Notes under the pieces: model-generated | Told to the model about the DNA's origin: nothing | The model's database searches: none | Seen by the model: only the letters and a program-made list of their open reading frames with translations | Position numbers and translations under genes: made by a program | Assembly: GCA_003132865.1 (NCBI GenBank) | Contig: PKYZ01000375.1 | Span: forward strand, 1-10,689 | DNA from: Bryobacterales bacterium | GTDB lineage: Bacteria; Acidobacteriota; Terriglobia; Bryobacterales; Bryobacteraceae | DNA: 10,689 bases | Direction: 5' to 3' | Shown here: one piece after another, positions 1,101 through 10,527 of the stretch | How the letters are laid out: every line of letters starts with the position of its first letter | How positions within the stretch are numbered: the stretch's first letter is position 1

Positions 1101-2483
1101 ATGGAAACTGGTTTCACCCTTAAAGACCTTGCCGAGCGGATGAGCGGCCGCCTCTCATCCGAGGACGGCCCCTACATTCTTTTCCTGGGCAAAGCCTGCG
1201 CTCGCGCCGCCGGAGCCCCGATGGAGAGGGCGCTCAGCAGCCTCGTCAAGGATTTCGGCGAGAGCTTGAAGCCCGGCATAGACGTCTCAGTGCAAGTGGA
1301 ATCCGGAAAACTGAGCATAGTCGATGCGGTCAGCCAGATCACTGCCGGGATGCCCCCGTCGCTGCGCTACATGCTGTTGCAGATGTTTTACAATCGCCTG
1401 CCGGTGCCGTTGTTCTATCAGGATCTTGCGGTGCTCGCCAAGGCGGGATACTTCCGGGGGATTTTCACCACGAACTTCGATACGCTCCTCGAGCAAGCCC
1501 TGGATGGCGCCGACCTGCGCCGCGGTACCGACTACTTCGTGCTCACGCCGGACACGCTCTCCCACTCGCCGCTACCCGACGAAGCCGGGCCGGCCATCGT
1601 GATTTATAAGCTGCACGGGGATCTCGGAGAGCGCAACGTCGCCCTCACCGTGGACGAAATCCGCGCGGCCCTCGGTCCCCAGCAGCGCTTCTTCCGACGC
1701 GGGCTCCGCGAGGACTTGATCATCGCTGGATACGAATTCGAATCCGATCCCGTGAACGATTGGCTGATTAGTTCCGGGGCTGATGAAATTTGGTGGGTGA
1801 GCGCCGCGCCGCCTCCGCCAGAAAGCATCGAGAAGATTGCGAGCACGCGGTCCATCAACTATTTATTGGGCGCCGACTCCTCTCCGGACGCCTTCTTCGG
1901 TCACCTCTGCAATTTCCTTTTGCGCATGCCGGTGCTGCAATCGCTCTCGACACCCCTGATCGAAGGGTCGGAGCCGAACGCGTCCGCGGGGGCGACGGCA
2001 ACGGGAACGGGCGGCCCACTGCCGCCAGCCGTTTCGGGAGCGGCGCGCGAGTCCGGGTATCTGCATGGCCGTCTGCAGCGTTCACAGGATGTGCTCTTCA
2101 GCCTCGAGCAAGCCGTCTCTCCGACCAGTGCCGACAGCAACATCGCCCACCAAATCGACTATCAGAAGCAGCAGATCTGGAATCTGCAAATCAAACTTTA
2201 CAGCGTTCGGGAAAACCGCGAGCGCGTTCTGCACGCGTTCGATCGACTCGCTGTCGCAGCGCGATCCGTACCCACGGATTCCGCCGCCCTCGCCTTTCTC
2301 GAATCGCAGGCGAGCGTCGTGCGGTCCCAGTACGACCAAGAGGCACCGAACGAAAATGTCGTCACCGCCGCCATTGGCGCCGCGATTGCGGTGGCGCCAA
2401 GCTTCCCCCCAAATCCAGAGATTTCCGATGCCATTCGCGAGCTCTCCGGCTTTAAAGGGACGCTCTCCGCAAGGGGGATGTGA
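1101..2483 (+). CDS. SIR2-like domain protein (first gene of SIR2/CHAT/transglutaminase-like operon)
   Basis: A 460-residue protein with a SIR2-like (sirtuin-fold) NAD-binding domain over about residues 20-280. Visible landmarks are a glycine-loop equivalent, ILFLGKACARAAGAP (26-40), the FTTNFDTLLEQAL motif (122-134) with N125 and D127, and YKLHGDL (169-175) with H172, the usual catalytic His position. IIAGYEFESD (207-216) stands where SIR2 proteins have a Gly-rich strand turn. The loop is unusual: the common GAGxS is GKACA. A Gly/Ala/Thr-rich linker (about 290-315) leads to a helical, coiled-coil-prone C-terminal region (about 318-412). In the family, such domains bind NAD and often hydrolyse it in anti-phage systems, sometimes by depleting NAD. 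Here activity is inferred only. The stop overlaps the CHAT gene start by one base, indicating translational coupling. No signal peptide is seen, so it is probably cytoplasmic. Confidence 0.82.
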   Translation: METGFTLKDLAERMSGRLSSEDGPYILFLGKACARAAGAPMERALSSLVKDFGESLKPGIDVSVQVESGKLSIVDAVSQITAGMPPSLRYMLLQMFYNRLPVPLFYQDLAVLAKAGYFRGIFTTNFDTLLEQALDGADLRRGTDYFVLTPDTLSHSPLPDEAGPAIVIYKLHGDLGERNVALTVDEIRAALGPQQRFFRRGLREDLIIAGYEFESDPVNDWLISSGADEIWWVSAAPPPPESIEKIASTRSINYLLGADSSPDAFFGHLCNFLLRMPVLQSLSTPLIEGSEPNASAGATATGTGGPLPPAVSGAARESGYLHGRLQRSQDVLFSLEQAVSPTSADSNIAHQIDYQKQQIWNLQIKLYSVRENRERVLHAFDRLAVAARSVPTDSAALAFLESQASVVRSQYDQEAPNENVVTAAIGAAIAVAPSFPPNPEISDAIRELSGFKGTLSARGM

Positions 2484-3568
2484 TGCCAAGCATTTCGCTG
2501 ATGGTTCTGTCCAAGGGGGGTGCCGACGACACGCCGCTCATGCTGATCGAGAAGGACGGTTTCTGGCGGGAAGTTCTTCCCAGCGCGGCAGGCATTCCCC
2601 CGGCCCAAGCGCGCAGCCTGTTCGACCAGCGCCTGAACGAGGCCATGCTCCAGGTGGATCAGGGCAAGCCCATGCCCGCGGCGCGGCTGAGCGGCCCTTG
2701 CGCCAGCCTCTACGCAGCGCTGGTGCCCTGGGATATCCGCGTCCTACTCCAGCAAACCCGCGAGCCAGGTGCGCGCCTGAACATCCACGCGCAAGCCGCC
2801 TTCGACTGGATTCCGTGGGAGCTTCTGTTCGATCCGGAGCTCCAGGCGTTTCTCGGCCTCCACTTTCAAATCTCGCGCCTGCCGATCGTGACCAAGCCTC
2901 CCGTTGCGGCGACCCAGCCCCGCGTGGTCCGCCACATCCACAATGTTCTTGGCAAGAAAGTGCTCGATCAGGCGGGCGATGCGGCACTATTCGATAAGTG
3001 GGTGACCACGTTCGCGCAAGTGGATCCGTCGAACGTCACCTGCATTCCGAGCGGCCACGCCGCCGCCTACGTCGGCGTGGAGGTGCTGCAGGAAGCAGTT
3101 TCCAGCGATATCCTGCACGTCACGTGTCACGGCATGCGCAACGACGCGCTGGGGAACTTCTGGACCCTGGACAAAGATGCGTCGACTTACGTCGGCGCGA
3201 TCAGCTCGGAAGCGATCGGCGTGCTGCCACTGACGAATGGGCGGCCGCTGGTGTTTGGCAACGCCTGTTTTTCGGCGGCGGCGGCTACGGGCATGAGCTC
3301 CGGTCTGGGGCCGGCCTTCTTCCGGCGGGGCGCGCTGAATCTGATAGGTACGCTGGCGCCAGTGAGCAAGACGCTAGCCATCGATTTCGCCCGAAAGTTC
3401 TACGCCGACCTGTTTGGATCTCCCGGCAACGGCGGTCCGCACGCCATCGGCGAGGCCCTGCTATCCGCAAAGAATTCGTTCCACGCCGCGGCCGGCGGCG
3501 ACCCTTCTTATCTTTTGTACTGTCTCTACGGCCCTGCCGACACCTGCTTCATCCTGACTAGAGACTGA
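2483..3568 (+). CDS. CHAT-domain cysteine peptidase-like protein
   Basis: A 361-residue protein. The N-terminal third (about 1-95) holds no motif I recognise. The CHAT domain (caspase/separase-like, clan CD) spans about 100-358. It has the entry segment FDWIPWELLFDPEL (107-120), the catalytic His motif ILHVTCHG (210-217, H216) and the catalytic Cys motif PLVFGNACFSA (255-265, C262). The C-terminal block GALNLIGTLAPV (283-294) and AIGEALLSAK (321-330) is typical of CHAT proteins. Both catalytic residues are present, so it is probably an active protease. I chose ATG 2483, which overlaps the preceding TGA as TGATG behind AAGGGGG at 2471-2477. A GTG at 2480 is the alternative. CHAT proteins in bacteria are usually activated effectors paired with sensors, and here the neighbours are a SIR2-like and a transglutaminase-like protein. 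No signal peptide is seen. Confidence 0.88.
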   Translation: MPSISLMVLSKGGADDTPLMLIEKDGFWREVLPSAAGIPPAQARSLFDQRLNEAMLQVDQGKPMPAARLSGPCASLYAALVPWDIRVLLQQTREPGARLNIHAQAAFDWIPWELLFDPELQAFLGLHFQISRLPIVTKPPVAATQPRVVRHIHNVLGKKVLDQAGDAALFDKWVTTFAQVDPSNVTCIPSGHAAAYVGVEVLQEAVSSDILHVTCHGMRNDALGNFWTLDKDASTYVGAISSEAIGVLPLTNGRPLVFGNACFSAAAATGMSSGLGPAFFRRGALNLIGTLAPVSKTLAIDFARKFYADLFGSPGNGGPHAIGEALLSAKNSFHAAAGGDPSYLLYCLYGPADTCFILTRD

Positions 3569-4795
3569 ATGACCGACCTTCAAGCCAAAGAACTGCTGGC
3601 CAACCAACTCCGCCGAGCCGCCTCCGCCTGGAAAGTGGGGCAGGCGCCCAATGACCTGTTGGACCGTCTGGACGCCGCCGAGCAGGCACTCGCGTCCGCC
3701 CGGCAGCTTCAGGGCCCCGATGACGACGCCACCGTCCTCACCACCGAGGGTCCTCCCAGCAGAATGCTCTCGGCCGAAACCACGGGACTGGAAGCGACCG
3801 TCAGTCTGCGTATGCGCCAGGTGCCCACCTCCATCGTCCACCTGTTGGATCCCGGCGAAACCCCCCTGGTCACCTGCACCGTGCGGAACACCCGCGACAA
3901 TCCAAAGGTGCGGCGCGTCCGCGTCACTTCGTTCGTGGAAGGCTATTCCGCCAAAGCGATCGAAACGATCGATCTGACCTACGGCAAAGACGCTTCCACT
4001 TTCAGCCAGTTGCCCACCTTTTTCCCGGACCGCATCCAAACTTTGCACGAGATGACGCGCGCCACGCTCAACGTGAAGGTCGAAGATCTCGACAACGGAA
4101 AGATCGAGTTGCACAAGACCTCGCACATCTGGCTGATGCCACCTACCACCGCGGTGCTCTCCATGAAGGACCCGGACACCGGAAAATGGAAGGATCTCAC
4201 GCCCTGGCTGGCCTCCTATGTCACCCCCAACGAGCCGTCGGTCCTGAACTTCCTGCGTAGCGCCGCTCTGCTCTCTTCCGTGGGCAAGCTATCCGGTTAT
4301 CAGGAACCGCGGAGTGGCGTGCCCGAGCAGGTGAAGGCGCTCTTTCTTTCCCTGAAGCAAAACTCCGGCATGCGGTACGTGAATTCCACGGTGGCCTACA
4401 GTCTCGAAAGCAGCACGGTTGTGCAGCGAGTCCGCCTGCCGCGCGAAAGCCTCGCCGACAAGGTGGCCAATTGCCTAGATGGCGCCGTGCTTTTCGCCAG
4501 CCTGCTGGAGGCCGCGTCGTTCAATCCTGGAATCGCGATCATGCCCGGGCATGCCTTGGTGGCCTGGGAAACCTGGGGGTTTTCCGACGAGTGGTCGTGC
4601 CTGGAAACCACAGAAATCGCCGATGCGGATTTCGACAAGGCCTGCGGCGATGCCGCGAACCTGGTGAAGCGCTATGCGCCCGCCGGCCTGAAATCGGGCC
4701 TGCCGCCGCCACCAGCGGGCAGCGAAGCCCTGCGCTTCTGCTGCGTCCGCGCGGCGCGCACCAGCGGGTCGGCGCGGGTGCTGCCCATGGGATAA
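3569..4795 (+). CDS. Transglutaminase-like cysteine peptidase with central beta-sandwich-like region
   Basis: A 408-residue protein whose ATG follows the CHAT stop directly (TGAATG), so it is probably translated by coupling; only a weak GAG lies upstream. Residues 1-50 are helical. Residues about 75-195 are strand-rich, with LLDPGETPLVTCTVRN (92-107) and alternating hydrophobic strands, suggesting an Ig-like or similar beta domain. Residues about 285-350 carry a transglutaminase-like core: KVANCLDGAVLFASLLEAA (298-316) with C302, IMPGHALVAW (324-333) with H328, and CLETTE (344-349) with E346. This gives the Cys-His-acid order of that fold. Members act as proteases, peptidases or cross-linkers; the substrate cannot be read here. 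A Pro-rich stretch (379-382) precedes the C-terminal tail. The N-terminus shows no signal peptide, so it is probably cytoplasmic like its partners. Confidence 0.72.
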   Translation: MTDLQAKELLANQLRRAASAWKVGQAPNDLLDRLDAAEQALASARQLQGPDDDATVLTTEGPPSRMLSAETTGLEATVSLRMRQVPTSIVHLLDPGETPLVTCTVRNTRDNPKVRRVRVTSFVEGYSAKAIETIDLTYGKDASTFSQLPTFFPDRIQTLHEMTRATLNVKVEDLDNGKIELHKTSHIWLMPPTTAVLSMKDPDTGKWKDLTPWLASYVTPNEPSVLNFLRSAALLSSVGKLSGYQEPRSGVPEQVKALFLSLKQNSGMRYVNSTVAYSLESSTVVQRVRLPRESLADKVANCLDGAVLFASLLEAASFNPGIAIMPGHALVAWETWGFSDEWSCLETTEIADADFDKACGDAANLVKRYAPAGLKSGLPPPPAGSEALRFCCVRAARTSGSARVLPMG

Positions 4796-4800
4796 GGCGC

Positions 4801-5145
4801 TCAGACTCTGCGCAGCCGGATGGAGACGACCACCCGCGCACCGCGCGCCGGCACCGGATAGCTCTCAGCGTGGACGTAGTCGCCCGCGCCAATGCGCCCG
4901 TCCCCGTCCAAATCGAGCAACGCACTCACCGTATAGATCGCGCTCGGGTCCACTAGTTGGGCTTCGACGCGGAACGGAATTCGCGCAGGCCGACCCGGAT
5001 CGTGGGCGATGCCGGGGATGGATATGGTCGCCAGCCGGCGCGCAGGTGCGTCAGCCTCCGTCGTATCCAAGACGGAAATAGTGGCAATGGCACCACGAAA
5101 TGCCGGTGCGTCCGCGGGCAGGTGCAACTCGCCGGCGATCTCCAC
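4801..5145 (-). CDS. YbaY/YscW-like small beta-domain protein with an EF-hand-like loop
   Basis: A 114-residue protein starting at a GTG five bases after the astacin stop, with no strong Shine-Dalgarno sequence, so translation probably depends on coupling. The segment LHLPADAPAFRGA (7-19), then ISVLDTTEADAPA (23-35), then IYTVSALLDLDGDG (70-83) and GDYVHAESYPV (88-98), resembles the YbaY/YscW (type III secretion pilotin-like) beta-sandwich family. Unlike E. coli YbaY it shows no lipoprotein signal peptide, so it may be cytoplasmic or the start may be misplaced. Residues 78-89 fit the 12-residue EF-hand loop (D78, D80, D82, G83, I85, D89), so calcium binding is possible. It is the last gene of the minus-strand operon and its stop lies 5 nt from the convergent operon's stop. 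Confidence 0.6.
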   Translation of the reverse strand: MEIAGELHLPADAPAFRGAIATISVLDTTEADAPARRLATISIPGIAHDPGRPARIPFRVEAQLVDPSAIYTVSALLDLDGDGRIGAGDYVHAESYPVPARGARVVVSIRLRRV

Positions 5146-5150
5146 CGTTT

Positions 5151-6011
5151 CTATTGCGCGATCGCGGTGGCGGCGGCGATGTCGTCCGGCGAAAGGGCTT
5201 CGCGCTGGCCGATCCGCACGCCGGCCGGAACTATAATGGTGGGCTTCGAGGCGTCTGCGGCAAAAGCGAATGCCGGATAGTGCATGATGGAGCCATAGTC
5301 GTACTGCCCGAGGTCTGTTCCGTCGGAGATGTGCTGATCGAAATTGTGTTCCAGCCCCGCCATGATGTTGGCAGCATCGATCTTGATGAATTTATCGCGG
5401 TCCGACCGGCTTTGTTCGTGCCATAGTCCGATGGTGTGTCCGATTTCGTGGATGGCGTTTCCCGCGGTGCAATCGGAACCAAGCGTCACGACCTGTTTAC
5501 CACCCCGGCGGCCAACCGACGAACTGCATCCGCTGCCCGGCCGGAACATTACGTAGTCCGGCTCGTTTTTATGCGCCTTGAAACGGAACTTGGTGTGCGC
5601 CTCCCAATGCTCGACCGCTTGGGTGACACGCTGCGCATTCGGCAGCGCGGCGTCGATCTCGAACGGCACCAGGTTGCCCGGCCAACGCGCCTGTTCGCCG
5701 CGAATTGCGATGCCCTCGATCTTGCGCTGCTGGAATGCATCTTGCAGCGCGATAACTGCCTTCTTTACGTCGGGCGAGGCGGCCAGTTTGTCCAGGTCGA
5801 TGGCCGCCGCCTTACGCAAGAGGTCGGCGAGGAATGCGCTTTGCGCCTCCTCGACCGTACCGAGCACAATATCGCCCTCGAACATGGCCAAGCCATCGAC
5901 CGCGGCGTACCGTACCTCTTTGTTGTCGAATGTCCGTCCCGAGATCACCGTGCTCCTGGGGGCGGCCGTCGAGCGAAATTCGCCCGACTGGACTATCGTA
6001 TCGTCAGCCAT
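5151..6011 (-). CDS. Astacin-type (M12A) zinc metallopeptidase, pro-form
   Basis: A 286-residue protein. The zinc site is HEIGHTIGLWHEQSRSDRD (188-206), the astacin signature HExxHxxGxxHExxRxDRD, with zinc ligands H188, H192 and H198 and the general base E189. The Met-turn is YDYGSIMHYP (237-246), with M243 and Y245. The mature catalytic domain appears to start near W110, followed by PGNLVPFEID. The N-terminal 105 residues look like a propeptide. They contain FEGDIVL (44-50), matching the FxGD aspartate-switch motif whose Asp (D47) holds the zinc in astacin zymogens. C162 and C181 could form a disulfide. No signal peptide is evident, unusual for a family that is mostly secreted. An AGGAG lies six bases upstream of the ATG. 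The gene follows the 720-aa membrane protein by 19 nt and precedes the YbaY-like gene by 5 nt, consistent with an operon. Confidence 0.93.
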   Translation of the reverse strand: MADDTIVQSGEFRSTAAPRSTVISGRTFDNKEVRYAAVDGLAMFEGDIVLGTVEEAQSAFLADLLRKAAAIDLDKLAASPDVKKAVIALQDAFQQRKIEGIAIRGEQARWPGNLVPFEIDAALPNAQRVTQAVEHWEAHTKFRFKAHKNEPDYVMFRPGSGCSSSVGRRGGKQVVTLGSDCTAGNAIHEIGHTIGLWHEQSRSDRDKFIKIDAANIMAGLEHNFDQHISDGTDLGQYDYGSIMHYPAFAFAADASKPTIIVPAGVRIGQREALSPDDIAAATAIAQ

Positions 6012-6030: not shown

Positions 6031-8193
6031 TTAAGCGCGCTTTGGAATGTTCTTGATCACCGAATCCAATGTGAGATCCAGGCCAAAAGCCCAGAAGAAG
6101 ATTATCACAAAATCCGCGAAATTGCCCACGAACTTGTCGGCGAATGTGTAGCGCGCGATAAGGCAGAGCAGGAAGCCGGACCCGAGCGTCTGCCAGAACT
6201 TGGTCCACCGGATCTTGCTTATCGTGCGCGCCATTCCGGCGGGTAGGGCGGGCGGCGCGTATGTCTCCTTCACGGCCGATTCGAGAGTGAGCACGAAACC
6301 GCGCGACAGGCTCGCGGGAGCGGCTGCGTCCTGCCATGTGGAGGGCGTGAGCGCCGCATCACTTTCCGCGTTCGTCAGCCTGTCAGCGGTAATCCGCGCC
6401 GCCTCGGCGTATTTGTTGGCACTCAGAAGATCGGCCACGGGTTTCCGTTTGGCTTCCTCCAATTGGAGGAGCAAGGCACCAGTCCAGGCCTCGTGCACGC
6501 TGCGCAGCGCCTTTCCCAGCGGCTGCGCCGCCGCTGCCGCATCGTTCACCAGCGCGGGCAGTTCCGCAGCCGCGGTTGTGACGCGGTCGAGCAGCGTCAG
6601 GATCAGATCCTTACGCGGAAGTTGCTCAATTTCGAGCAGGGGAGCGAGCGCTTTCCGCGCCTCGACGACCAGGTTGCTTCCCAGCCTGGCGACTGCGTCC
6701 TGGGCTGCCCGCAGTTCCTCGGAGAGATCGTGCAAGAACTGAATCAACTGTGCCGAGGAGGCCTGCGCTGGAAGCTGGGCCTTCCCGACGGCAGCCCGCG
6801 CCGCCGCGGCTATGGGCTGAAAGCCCGCGGCAATCGGCGGTGAAATACCCATGTCCGCATTGGACAGGCTATCGAGCAGCAGACCGATGCCGCCCTGCCA
6901 TTTGCGCGCGTTGATGTCCAATGCGACAGTCAACGCGGTTTGCAGTTCGTTGGTGGTGTTCACAGCCCCCGTCACATTGTCCGCGCGCATCTGGGCAGCC
7001 GCGTCGGCCAATTTGGTCCGTCCGGCCGCCAGCGCCTCAGAGACGGAGTTGGGAACTGGCCAGAGACTGCGCACGACGGAACTCACGCCGTCCAGCGTGG
7101 CCTGCGCCGCCGCCCGGCGCGTACCGAGGTCCTGCAGTGCGGCCCGCCATGCCTGCTCCAGCGCCTGGCGCGCGTTGTCCAAGGCGCCCGCATCGTCTCC
7201 GTTCTGCGCGTTCTGCACCGCTGTTAATAGAGCCGCGAGCGCGTCGTGGAATAGTTTGTCGGCGCGTCGTTCCAGGTCCGTTTGTACTTGCTGCAACAGA
7301 GTCTGCGAGCGCAGCCGCGCCTGCTCCATTTCCAGGTTCTGCTGGAGGAAAACCTTCAGGAACCACCCCATTACCAGACCTGGAATGGCAAAGGCAATGA
7401 TCCAGAACAGAGGTCTGCGAGACCATACCTCGATATTCATCGGGACGGCGTCGGCCAGCGCCGGCGACACCAACTCCACCGACCCGGTGACTTTTCCGAG
7501 CGGAAACCCGCTTTGCAGGGTGTACGGAACGATAGCGCTCTTGCCCGGTTCGACGCGAAGGGGAGAAGGCGCGACTCCCTCCTTCCCCGGTTCTTGGTGC
7601 GGGAACAGAATCCGGGCGCCGATGGGTCCCGAAGGGCCGATCAGTTCGGTAACGGTCCGCAGTTGTATGCCGGTGGCCGCCGACTTCCCATTGAGTTCCC
7701 AAAGGACCAGCGCGGGCGTTTCTTGCCGATCCCACAAGAGACCAACCACCCGGTGGATCACCAAGGTGCCCGGAACGCGCAACTTAGCTGCCGGATGGCT
7801 CACCTGCAGTTTCAGAACGCCCGGTGCGGCGCCTTTTTGGGAGAATAAGACCGTCACATCGTAGGCGCCCTGTTCGCGCAATTCCTCCGGTTTCAGCAAG
7901 TGGAGCAGCAGCGCGCCGGGTTGACCATCCGAATCCGTGGCCCACGCGGCTGCGAAGACCTGGTCCGGCGCGCTGAACTTGCGGTTGCCCAGCGCGACAT
8001 CCACCACAGCGAGACGAATCTCGTCGGCATTGACTCCGGCCTTAGGAGTGACCAGAAAGCGGAATGTGTCGCCACATCTCTCGCAGATCTCGGCGACATT
8101 GGCGCCCACCAACCTAACGATATCTTCAGCTGTTCCCGGGAAAGCGCCCGCCAGTACCGCAACCGTTAATCCGAGCCATCTCGTGGTCTCCAA
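6031..8193 (-). CDS. Large membrane protein: signal peptide, extracytoplasmic beta region, TM, long helical domain, two C-terminal TMs
   Basis: A 720-residue protein I cannot assign to a named family. I place the start at TTG 8193, preceded by GGGGGAG six bases upstream. This yields a clean signal peptide (TRWLGLTVAVLAGAFPG, 4-20), whereas the longer ATG frame from 8274 puts unlikely sequence before it. Residues about 25-255 are strand-rich and Pro/Gly-containing, probably extracytoplasmic, with a CxxC (C37, C40) near the mature N-terminus. A transmembrane helix follows at about 262-282 (LFWIIAFAIPGLVMGWFLKV). Residues about 285-640 are Ala/Leu/Glu-rich helix and coiled coil, presumably cytoplasmic. 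Two further hydrophobic segments lie near 666-681 and 692-706. The layout suggests a transmembrane sensor, scaffold or anchor. It is the first gene of the astacin operon. Confidence 0.75.
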   Translation of the reverse strand: METTRWLGLTVAVLAGAFPGTAEDIVRLVGANVAEICERCGDTFRFLVTPKAGVNADEIRLAVVDVALGNRKFSAPDQVFAAAWATDSDGQPGALLLHLLKPEELREQGAYDVTVLFSQKGAAPGVLKLQVSHPAAKLRVPGTLVIHRVVGLLWDRQETPALVLWELNGKSAATGIQLRTVTELIGPSGPIGARILFPHQEPGKEGVAPSPLRVEPGKSAIVPYTLQSGFPLGKVTGSVELVSPALADAVPMNIEVWSRRPLFWIIAFAIPGLVMGWFLKVFLQQNLEMEQARLRSQTLLQQVQTDLERRADKLFHDALAALLTAVQNAQNGDDAGALDNARQALEQAWRAALQDLGTRRAAAQATLDGVSSVVRSLWPVPNSVSEALAAGRTKLADAAAQMRADNVTGAVNTTNELQTALTVALDINARKWQGGIGLLLDSLSNADMGISPPIAAGFQPIAAAARAAVGKAQLPAQASSAQLIQFLHDLSEELRAAQDAVARLGSNLVVEARKALAPLLEIEQLPRKDLILTLLDRVTTAAAELPALVNDAAAAAQPLGKALRSVHEAWTGALLLQLEEAKRKPVADLLSANKYAEAARITADRLTNAESDAALTPSTWQDAAAPASLSRGFVLTLESAVKETYAPPALPAGMARTISKIRWTKFWQTLGSGFLLCLIARYTFADKFVGNFADFVIIFFWAFGLDLTLDSVIKNIPKRA

Positions 8194-8199
8194 ATGGGT

Positions 8200-8206
8200 C
8201 TCCCCC
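8200..8206 (-). promoter_or_regulatory. Ribosome binding site supporting the TTG start at 8193
   Basis: Minus-strand GGGGGAG ends six bases before the TTG at 8193. It is the best Shine-Dalgarno match near the 5' end of this frame, and the signal peptide begins immediately after, so sequence and protein evidence agree. Confidence 0.6.
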
Positions 8207-8410
8207 AATCCTCTCGATTGTACACCTCGTCTGTGTGCGGCGAACGTTGCCGCAGCGTGATAACAAGCCTGCATGCACCATCGTCGGGTGTGGCGTCCAC
8301 GTTCCCCCGCCTTCGGAGGATCACGCCAGGTTGTTCAACGATTGTGCCAGCCCTTTGTTGTTGCCGGGTTCGCGGCAGAGCCGCTCCTGTTCCTTGGGTT
8401 AGCGCACTAG

Positions 8411-8709: not shown

Positions 8710-9453
8710 ATGATGCTATCGAGCCAGGAAGTCCGTTGGTTTTTCCAAGGAGCCATCGAGCAACATCAAGCATTGCGGAGCTGGGTGGAAGAGAGCGACC
8801 CAATTGATGGAGAGGTGGACGTTGCTCGACCCACATGGAAGGTAAGGCTTGGTGGCAAACCAGACGTCTATCTCCTCGTTCCGGGACACGCCGACATGGG
8901 CATCAAATGGCGGGAAGGTCAGTTGCAGATCAAGGGGCTCCAGAGTCCATTGGGTACACAGCTCTTCAGCGGCCGGCGCGAAGGACGGGTGGAGAGGTGG
9001 ATCAAATGGAGTTACGAAGGAGAGCCTATCAAGCAGGCATTTGCTCACTGGTTCAGAGAACCCGGATTTGCCGGCCCCCGCATCATCGAGGTTTTCAAGA
9101 CGAGGTGCCTTCGCAAGGCGCGAATCGATCCTCAAACCGGCCAGGCGAAGGAAGTCAACGCCGAAGAGCACATCGAGAGAGGCTGCGCCCTCGAAGTCGC
9201 CGAACTTAGAGTCGGGGCTGATTTGTACTGCTCAGTCGCATTCGAGGCCTTTCCCGATGACTCCGCGATGCATGCTGATTTCACCAGCTTTGTGAACTGC
9301 TTTCTTCAGAAACTGCCGGACGTGGCGCTGTCGGAATCCAACTCCATGGGCTACCCGGCATGGCTGGATACAATCTCAAGAAACGCTCTGCCGACTGAGA
9401 TGCTGCCCGGTGATGTTGGTGGAACAGTCCGGACTGGAAACGGGGACGTTTAG
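8710..9453 (+). CDS. Hypothetical protein, possibly CYTH/triphosphate-tunnel-like
   Basis: A 247-residue protein of unproven function. The start is set by AGGAGGAG (8699-8706); ATG 8713 is almost equally good. Its pattern weakly recalls CYTH-fold proteins: an early strand DVYLLVPG (residues 52-59), then MGIKWREGQLQIKGL (63-77), which resembles the CYTH turn where basic residues line a tunnel (L-R-x-R, then x-K). A late strand LEVAELRVGADLYCSVAFEAF (approximately 160-181) follows, with acidic residues, and there is a C-terminal YPAWL. The classical N-terminal ExExK motif is not present, so catalytic activity is doubtful. No signal peptide or membrane segment is seen. It stands alone, divergent from the 720-aa protein gene and downstream of the WD40 remnant. 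It is a real gene by ribosome binding site, length and residue pattern; the fold call is tentative. Confidence 0.65.
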   Translation: MMLSSQEVRWFFQGAIEQHQALRSWVEESDPIDGEVDVARPTWKVRLGGKPDVYLLVPGHADMGIKWREGQLQIKGLQSPLGTQLFSGRREGRVERWIKWSYEGEPIKQAFAHWFREPGFAGPRIIEVFKTRCLRKARIDPQTGQAKEVNAEEHIERGCALEVAELRVGADLYCSVAFEAFPDDSAMHADFTSFVNCFLQKLPDVALSESNSMGYPAWLDTISRNALPTEMLPGDVGGTVRTGNGDV

Positions 9454-9813
9454 ATTAATTGCAGTTCCTCCTTTATTTGCCGGAGGCCTTGCAAGCTGGC
9501 CTCAAGAGTGGCGAGAGGTTTTCTGAAACCGTTGCCGAGCCCAGCCGCGGCAGGTGGGAACGCTCCCTAAACCCAGACACGAACAGAGCTTGCGCTCGTC
9601 TCGGCAATGGCACGTCGAGCCGGCGATCGGCTGCCGGATCAGGCCCACTGTCTCCTATCGGAACAACTGATCGCAAGGTCCGCCTCGGTGGCCCTAAGGG
9701 CTTGCGCGGTGGCCCTTGGTCTCTGCCGCGGGGCCGATTATCCTCGACATTGAAATCACCTGTCAAACATAGCCGCGGGTCTGGAGACGTTCGCACTGGC
9801 ACTCCAGGCAAGA
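9454..9813. other. Intergenic segment with no supported gene
   Basis: Open frames exist on both strands, but none has a ribosome binding site, conserved motif or plausible composition (the longest are Arg/Pro/Ser-rich). A 10-bp direct repeat, CGGTGGCCCT, occurs at 9686-9695 and 9707-9716, and GCCCT/AGGGC form a small inverted repeat around 9691-9701. No terminator with a T-run is apparent after the 8710 gene. Confidence 0.5.
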
Positions 9814-10300: not shown

Positions 10301-10441
10301 GGCGGCTCCCGCCGCATCTTCCTCCTGGGTGCAGCAGGCGACCAGGAGGAAAACGGCCCGCGAGCCGTCCACTCGGCGGGCCCCCCAAAAACGTCGCTCC
10401 GAAGTAAGGACTATGTCCCATAAGGTAATCTTTTTGGGACA
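10301..10441. repeat. Run of four consecutive inverted repeats
   Basis: Four non-overlapping inverted repeats follow each other: GGCGG/CCGCC (10301-10313, 3-nt loop); TTCCTCCTGG/CCAGGAGGAA (10319-10351, 10-bp perfect stem, 13-nt loop); GGCCCGCGAG with CTCGGCGGGCC (10355-10382, one bulged G, 7-nt loop); and TGTCCCA/TGGGACA (10414-10441, 14-nt interior that can extend the stem). The second and third stems are longer than expected by chance. The array could be a structured RNA, a mobile-element end or an attachment/regulatory region. I see no coding frame that explains it. Confidence 0.6.
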
Positions 10442-10527
10442 AGGAACTACGCCAGCGCGCCGTGGCGCCGCGAGGCGAAGAACGGGCAAAGATCCTCCTG
10501 CTCGCCTGCTGCTACCAGGAGGGTTAA
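10438..10527 (+). pseudogene. IS630-type transposase N-terminal fragment
   Basis: The frame from 10438 reads DKELRQRAVAPRGEERAKIL then LLACCYQEG before a TAA at 10525-10527. This matches the N-terminus of another IS630 transposase subgroup (ordinarily a helical segment with ERAKILLLA leading into the helix-turn-helix). The frame is closed at once and no start codon is present, so it is a dead fragment. Its subgroup differs from that of the remnant at 271, so the two are separate insertions. The inverted repeat at 10414-10441, next to a TA dinucleotide at 10412-10413, might be the element's end, since IS630 elements insert at TA; that is inference. Confidence 0.65.

Follow-up and report, generated by a model that had tools for sequence, protein, structure and literature searches.

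The three genes at positions 1101 to 4795 on the forward strand of contig PKYZ01000375.1, a 10,689-nucleotide stretch from a Bryobacterales bacterium that was analyzed as a whole and is called the window here, are likely to constitute a conflict system. Our narrower reading, drawn from sequence comparison and structural models, is that they probably form a suicide-type immunity operon in which a SIR2 NADase effector would be under the control of two peptidases. The genes encode, in order, a SIR2-like protein of the NADase class (460 amino acids, 1101 to 2483), a CHAT caspase-like peptidase (361 amino acids, 2483 to 3568), and a protein with a transglutaminase-like (TGL) fold (408 amino acids, 3569 to 4795). 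The SIR2 and CHAT genes overlap by 1 base (TGATG) and the start of the TGL gene directly abuts the CHAT stop codon, confirming the 1-nucleotide overlap and 0-nucleotide gap reported in a first-pass annotation of this DNA. That annotation had proposed an NAD-linked conflict operon with two proteases; the idea is partly upheld, by a predicted NADase-class SIR2 protein joined to two putative cysteine peptidases of different folds in an arrangement that, by contig-size evidence, recurs elsewhere.

The SIR2 protein matched SIR2_2 (PF13289) with 48 bits against a gathering cut-off of 24.5. It is divided into a SIR2 domain (residues ~1-283), a linker (~284-312), and a helical C-terminal domain (~313-456) that matched no Pfam family above cut-off in the window protein or in nine relatives. 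The linker has low confidence in the predicted structure, and its mean conservation was 0.17 versus 0.53 and 0.48 in the two flanking parts. Residues were counted over listed homologues including the window protein (105 for SIR2, the best 120 of 137 for CHAT, and the best 120 of 765 for TGL). The two SIR2 residues singled out at first pass were largely retained, N125 of the TTNxD motif (codon 1473 to 1475) being Asn in 89/105 and Ser in 14/105, and H172 of the KLHGD motif (codon 1614 to 1616) being His in 99/105 and lost in 6/105. D127, K170, G173, and D174 were kept in 105/105. Sequences P0125, P0126, P0127, P0143, and P0153 are among the 14 with Ser in place of Asn; NADase activity may be altered or lost in this subgroup and may be lacking from some SIR2 relatives. 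The window protein itself combines an NADase-class SIR2 fold with the active-site Asn and His. Its predicted fold was closest to antiphage NADases (SPARSA, Kom, Thoeris, and SIR2-HerA), and the SIR2 profile also picked up SPARSA, ThsA, and KomC by sequence. Matches to PADLOC defence models containing SIR2 were weak (PDC-S65, 2.8e-9; SIR2-Argonaute type, 3.7e-8).

The CHAT protein scored 47.8 bits against PF12770 (1.8e-12; cut-off 24) and also matched Peptidase_C25 (3.6e-7). Both of its proposed catalytic residues, H216 and C262, were invariant (120/120 of the best 120 of 137), and a PDB sequence search with this protein returned nothing at E 0.01. The TGL protein is predicted to consist of a helical hairpin (3-46), a beta-sandwich (~63-192) as anticipated at first pass, and a TGL domain (~199-403) with a transglutaminase-type fold and a Cys-His-acid set. 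The expected Cys-His-Glu set held, with C302 and H328 present in 120/120 and E346 in 119/120 of the best 120 of 765. Profile searches had been proposed for all three proteins, and they succeeded for SIR2_2 and CHAT but not for Transglut_core (PF01841), which gave 12.8 bits against a cut-off of 23 for the window TGL despite the predicted fold and matched 0/36 TGL family members at E 0.01. Neither Pfam nor PADLOC recognized the window TGL, and a PDB sequence search with it found nothing at E 0.1. Because the catalytic residues are conserved, activity of both peptidases can be expected in most members.

Co-occurrence was assessed by comparing identical longest-contig sizes across the SIR2, CHAT, and TGL homologue lists, with the same lists shifted 1 to 60 bases either way to give the chance level. 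Among the matches listed, SIR2 and CHAT shared 24 contig sizes versus 0.8 expected; one of these, a contig of 1808 nucleotides, is too short for both genes, must be a chance match, and was discarded, leaving 23. SIR2 and TGL shared at least 13 contig sizes (0.95 expected), TGL and CHAT at least 8 (1.2 expected), and all three proteins at least 2, whereas the shifted lists never shared more than 4. The method is indirect and lossy, as the three clusters of the window itself give three different longest sizes, and SIR2-TGL co-occurrence is undercounted because TGL is represented by the best 120 of 765 matches (the TGL family being larger than the SIR2 family, 765 versus 105 matches). Paired distances were correlated for SIR2 and CHAT (r = 0.89; 24 pairs including the window and without the 1808-nucleotide match; 0/5000 permutations) and for SIR2 and TGL (r = 0.73; 14 pairs; 1 and 0 of 5000 permutations in two runs). 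For TGL and CHAT the correlation was not significant (r = 0.20; 9 pairs; 874 and 850 of 5000 permutations). These correlations support an origin of the paired proteins in the same genomes; they are not proof of adjacency, and vertical inheritance alone can yield them. Indirect as they are, the shared contig sizes and the distance correlations indicate that the arrangement is not confined to the window.

Adjacency was seen in a Chloroflexi metagenome-assembled genome (G002), where a full-length SIR2 relative is followed by CHAT with a 1-base overlap (TAATG) at locus L065. The 15 kb covered at this locus showed no TGL gene, and the contig stops 1,064 nucleotides past CHAT; a TGL gene lies elsewhere in G002 (L002) and is interrupted as assembled. 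At E 1e-20 the SIR2 profile matched 10/400 Chloroflexota genomes, one of them (G002) at full length, and 0/396 Acidobacteriota genomes. At 1e-30 it matched 0/195 Myxococcota and 0/294 Planctomycetota genomes. Viral contigs yielded 1 remote relative among 162 pattern matches to the SIR2 alignment and none among 141 to the TGL alignment, and plasmids gave 1 remote SIR2 match and 46 remote TGL matches, none covering 80%. A pattern-based scan with the TGL alignment of one genome per species (84,980 species) identified 44 loci, and this SIR2 family was found in the stretch around none of them. As far as the pattern scan is sensitive enough to tell, few sequenced species therefore seem to have the three-gene operon. 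Our confidence that the genes are a recurring unit is high for SIR2-CHAT and fair for all three.

We divided the 44 TGL loci by score into 18 close loci (L001-L018, at least 231 bits) and 26 distant loci (L019-L044, at most 187 bits). Conflict genes (CHAT, C25, C14, STAND/NACHT, EAD, or Death-like) adjoined TGL in 14/18 close loci compared to 1/19 of the distant loci scanned, the latter being L036 with nSTAND2 (19 of 26 were scanned; p = 6.7e-6). Counted by protein, conflict domains were present in 18/37 neighbours in the close set versus 1/20 in the distant set (p = 0.0009). Because neighbours were picked visually according to size and orientation and were more numerous per locus in the close set, these p-values are only indicative. 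L002 was counted as positive on a CHAT match of 20.6 bits, which is under the Pfam cut-off but matches the window CHAT at 1.7e-9, and L004 on a caspase gene approximately 3 kb downstream. No conflict domain was found in the neighbours scanned at L005, L012, L015, or L017.

The positive loci are varied. In Nonomuraea (L003) the order is CHAT-CHAT-TGL, with an in-frame TGL ATG overlapping the CHAT stop codon (ATGA), which resembles the order in the window with CHAT replacing SIR2. TGL occurs in Sorangium with CHAT (L006) or with CHAT and CHAT-nSTAND1 (L010), and in L001 and L002 it precedes a fusion of a lipase-like hydrolase with CHAT. EAD1-nSTAND1-FGE adjoins TGL in L011, a Death-like protein and NACHT-FGE-EAD7 accompany it in L014, and bDLD1 is also among the neighbours of close TGL relatives. 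These findings did not bear out the fixed coupling to TGL that the first-pass annotation had supposed: SIR2-CHAT is the tighter pair, close TGL relatives adjoin other conflict genes, and L065 was seen without TGL, on a contig that stops 1,064 nucleotides past CHAT. In L004, an SH3-muramidase protein (10718-13810) and a caspase (C14) protein (13887-17378) are encoded downstream of metzincin-TGL; the muramidase might take the position of SIR2 as an effector that lyses the cell. In Bacteroidales, distant relatives of TGL (L071 8467-9660, L037, and L039) lie beside DUF3805 and ABC-F genes, apparently outside any conflict context.

The operon differs from antiphage systems with SIR2 NADases (Thoeris ThsA, SPARSA, DSR1/2, SIR2-HerA, Kom, and Avs5) in that the partners of SIR2 are two peptidases. 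None of the 7 window proteins scanned was a TIR, Argonaute, HerA, or STAND protein; Thoeris would need the TIR partner ThsB, which is absent from these proteins of the 10.7-kb window, and SPARSA a short Argonaute, which is likewise absent. CHAT peptidases occur in Craspase (type III-E CRISPR) and Borvo (PMC10952713, available portion), and the window CHAT, whose His and Cys are invariant, is a caspase-like peptidase as they are. It differs in being a standalone protein of 361 amino acids without a TPR match, and the gRAMP effector and array of Craspase have no counterpart: none of the 7 proteins is a Cas protein, and array-like repeats are absent from the window. The same portion of that source describes the CHAT of Craspase as acting on one partner protein, Csx30, and assigns SIR2 domains and CHAT domains to different antiphage systems. 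In the accessible part of PMC10910872, CHAT and SIR2 are named in figure legends only.

Another related group is that of the peptidase-linked conflict systems found in multicellular bacteria (VMAP-MoxR-vWA, EACC1, NucA-trypsin, and the EAD network); close TGL relatives adjoin EAD1, EAD7, bDLD1, and STAND. As far as the available text of PMC7159879 goes, conflict systems with swapped effectors include caspase and trypsin peptidases and, in rare cases, transglutaminase-like ones, and in VMAP systems a caspase gene always adjoins an alpha/beta-hydrolase gene. The alternative effectors of the EAD10 system include SIR2 and a papain-fold transglutaminase-like domain according to the portion of PMC8195603 available, where SIR2 is named once; in the corresponding text of PMC7159879 it is absent. 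Compared with VMAP/MoxR-vWA ternary systems, the 7 window proteins scanned include no MoxR, vWA, or VMAP component. They also contain no EAD or Death-like domain at E up to 1, in contrast to the TGL neighbourhoods of L011 and L014.

Other relatives of the TGL protein were also considered. It shares a TGL fold and Cys-His order with PNGase and with the bacterial transglutaminase-like cysteine peptidase LapG, but its third residue is Glu, it has an additional beta-sandwich and helical hairpin, and it does not match Transglut_core above cut-off. The NCBIfam model of the anti-phage protein ProA (NF058533) was matched by 36/36 TGL sequences of A1. The window TGL matched it at 3.9e-22 over profile positions 30-235 of 1903, scoring 77.6 bits where the cut-off is 1500, and is a protein of 408 rather than 1903 amino acids without a helicase. 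TGL-like regions sit within DUF3320 proteins on plasmids, and we infer that NF058533 represents a large DUF3320 helicase-type protein; searches of the open-access literature did not reveal which published protein ProA is. On a Mesorhizobium plasmid (L070, 8701-15802), the first part of a large DUF3320 protein contains a TGL-like region; its gene precedes one for a DNA repair exonuclease and then a third gene, and this is possibly a ProA-type system. We rate SIR2-CHAT-TGL as a new combination inside the known conflict-system network because the descriptions of known systems, in the portions available, do not unite the three. Its presumed novelty at first pass agrees with our finding no description of it in open-access full texts, which is weak evidence of novelty.

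These results could fit more than one scenario. SIR2-CHAT could be the real system, a two-gene unit, with TGL as an exchangeable accessory that joined it in some lineages and serves other conflict modules elsewhere. We regard this as possible though doubtful. The pair has the tightest coupling (23 feasible shared contig sizes, r = 0.89), it stands without TGL in L065, and TGL has many other partners; against this, SIR2 and TGL share at least 13 contig sizes (r = 0.73) with co-occurrence undercounted from the best 120 of 765, and the L065 contig ends 1,064 nucleotides past CHAT. Alternatively, SIR2 could be a sensor, scaffold, or deacylase, with the peptidases as the effectors, killing by cutting cell proteins. 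The catalytic pairs of CHAT and TGL are invariant in the 120/120 listed, whereas N125 is Ser in 14/105 and H172 is lost in 6/105, yet the closest SIR2 folds are NADase effectors and D127, K170, G173, and D174 are kept in 105/105, which makes such a role for SIR2 unlikely.

A stress or developmental protease module with no conflict role would be in keeping with the ordinary genes beside distant TGL relatives and with the DUF3805 and ABC-F genes beside those in Bacteroides. We consider it improbable, given the CHAT, STAND, and EAD genes next to close relatives (14/18 versus 1/19 loci) and a SIR2 protein of a defence class.

Beyond the operon, the window has a GC content of 61%. A set of genes on the reverse strand converges on TGL, comprising a 747-amino-acid protein (6031 to 8274), an astacin-family metzincin (286 amino acids, 5151 to 6011), and a 114-amino-acid protein (4801 to 5145). 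The last gene of the set encodes the 114-amino-acid protein and ends 5 nucleotides from the TGL stop codon; its YscW-like Pfam match (0.0015, 19.3 bits) is under the cut-off of 22.6. The 747-amino-acid gene, apparently the first of the set, lies 19 nucleotides upstream of the metzincin gene. Its product has hydrophobic segments by eye, matched no Pfam family above cut-off, and had 1 weak relative in 189 Acidobacteriota genomes. Scans for transfer RNA and Rfam families found nothing, and the promoter and terminator scan was at chance level. Just upstream of the operon (~240-850) are broken reading frames, which we take to resemble an IS630-type transposase remnant. A 30-nucleotide inverted repeat, 90% complementary with its arms 142 nucleotides apart (10321-10350 and 10493-10522), may represent either the end of a mobile element or a hairpin.

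The window metzincin matched PF01400 (2.5e-46, 158.2 bits versus 22.5) and has both HExxHxxGxxH and a Met-turn (MHY). It also aligned strongly with the NCBIfam model of the Legionella effector metalloprotease LegP (1.9e-82), at 276.5 bits under the cut-off of 300. Metzincin genes also occur near relatives of the operon. In L065, a metzincin-like gene (3644-4768; 20.5 bits, just under the Pfam astacin cut-off of 22.5) lies 60 nucleotides upstream of SIR2-CHAT on the same strand. In L004, a metzincin assigned by motif and alignment (8837-9598) is beside TGL on the same strand, with an in-frame TGL TTG overlapping its stop codon and an in-frame ATG 8 nucleotides past it. These two are 46% identical, and a third metzincin of their family, in G289 (L069 12522-13262), precedes a gene for an EAD1 protein that also has a trypsin match under the threshold. 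Two further open reading frames at the scanned loci have the motif, at 2 and 6 kb from a TGL gene, and the metzincin profile matched 2/301 Chloroflexota genomes, including G002, from which it was derived. The operon may have a metzincin as an additional partner, although three cases make no rule. Membership of the window metzincin in the operon was not adopted, as the gene is convergent, 355 nucleotides from the TGL stop codon, and its product is 26% identical to the L065 metzincin compared to 46% between L004 and L065; it is a candidate accessory peptidase outside the operon.

Returning to the suicide-type operon that we favor, SIR2 would act last, as an NADase effector of the SPARSA/Kom/ThsA/SIR2-HerA/DSR2 class that stays silent until infection or another intrusion and then drains cellular NAD+. 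CHAT, the closely coupled partner of SIR2, would be the probable executioner protease, cutting the SIR2 linker at ~284-312 and thereby freeing or rearranging the NADase; Craspase, whose CHAT acts on Csx30, offers a precedent. TGL, whose family turns up again next to CHAT, caspase, STAND/NACHT, and EAD or Death-like proteins, would for that reason probably initiate or license the process. We infer NADase activity, the site of cleavage, the order of the proteases, the trigger, and protection against phage alike, and the order with CHAT as executioner and TGL as initiator is offered with considerable doubt. More broadly, and tentatively, the locus may be a so far undescribed apoptosis-like cascade of bacteria in which CHAT and TGL, with a metzincin in some lineages, unlock the SIR2 NADase, TGL being a reusable control part whose swapped effectors would include SIR2, the lipase-like hydrolase-CHAT fusion, possibly a muramidase, and STAND/EAD proteins. 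If true, caspase-like proteolysis and NAD+ loss would be joined in one bacterial operon as a testable proteolytic cascade, and the TGL-fold family would be a marker for further conflict systems.

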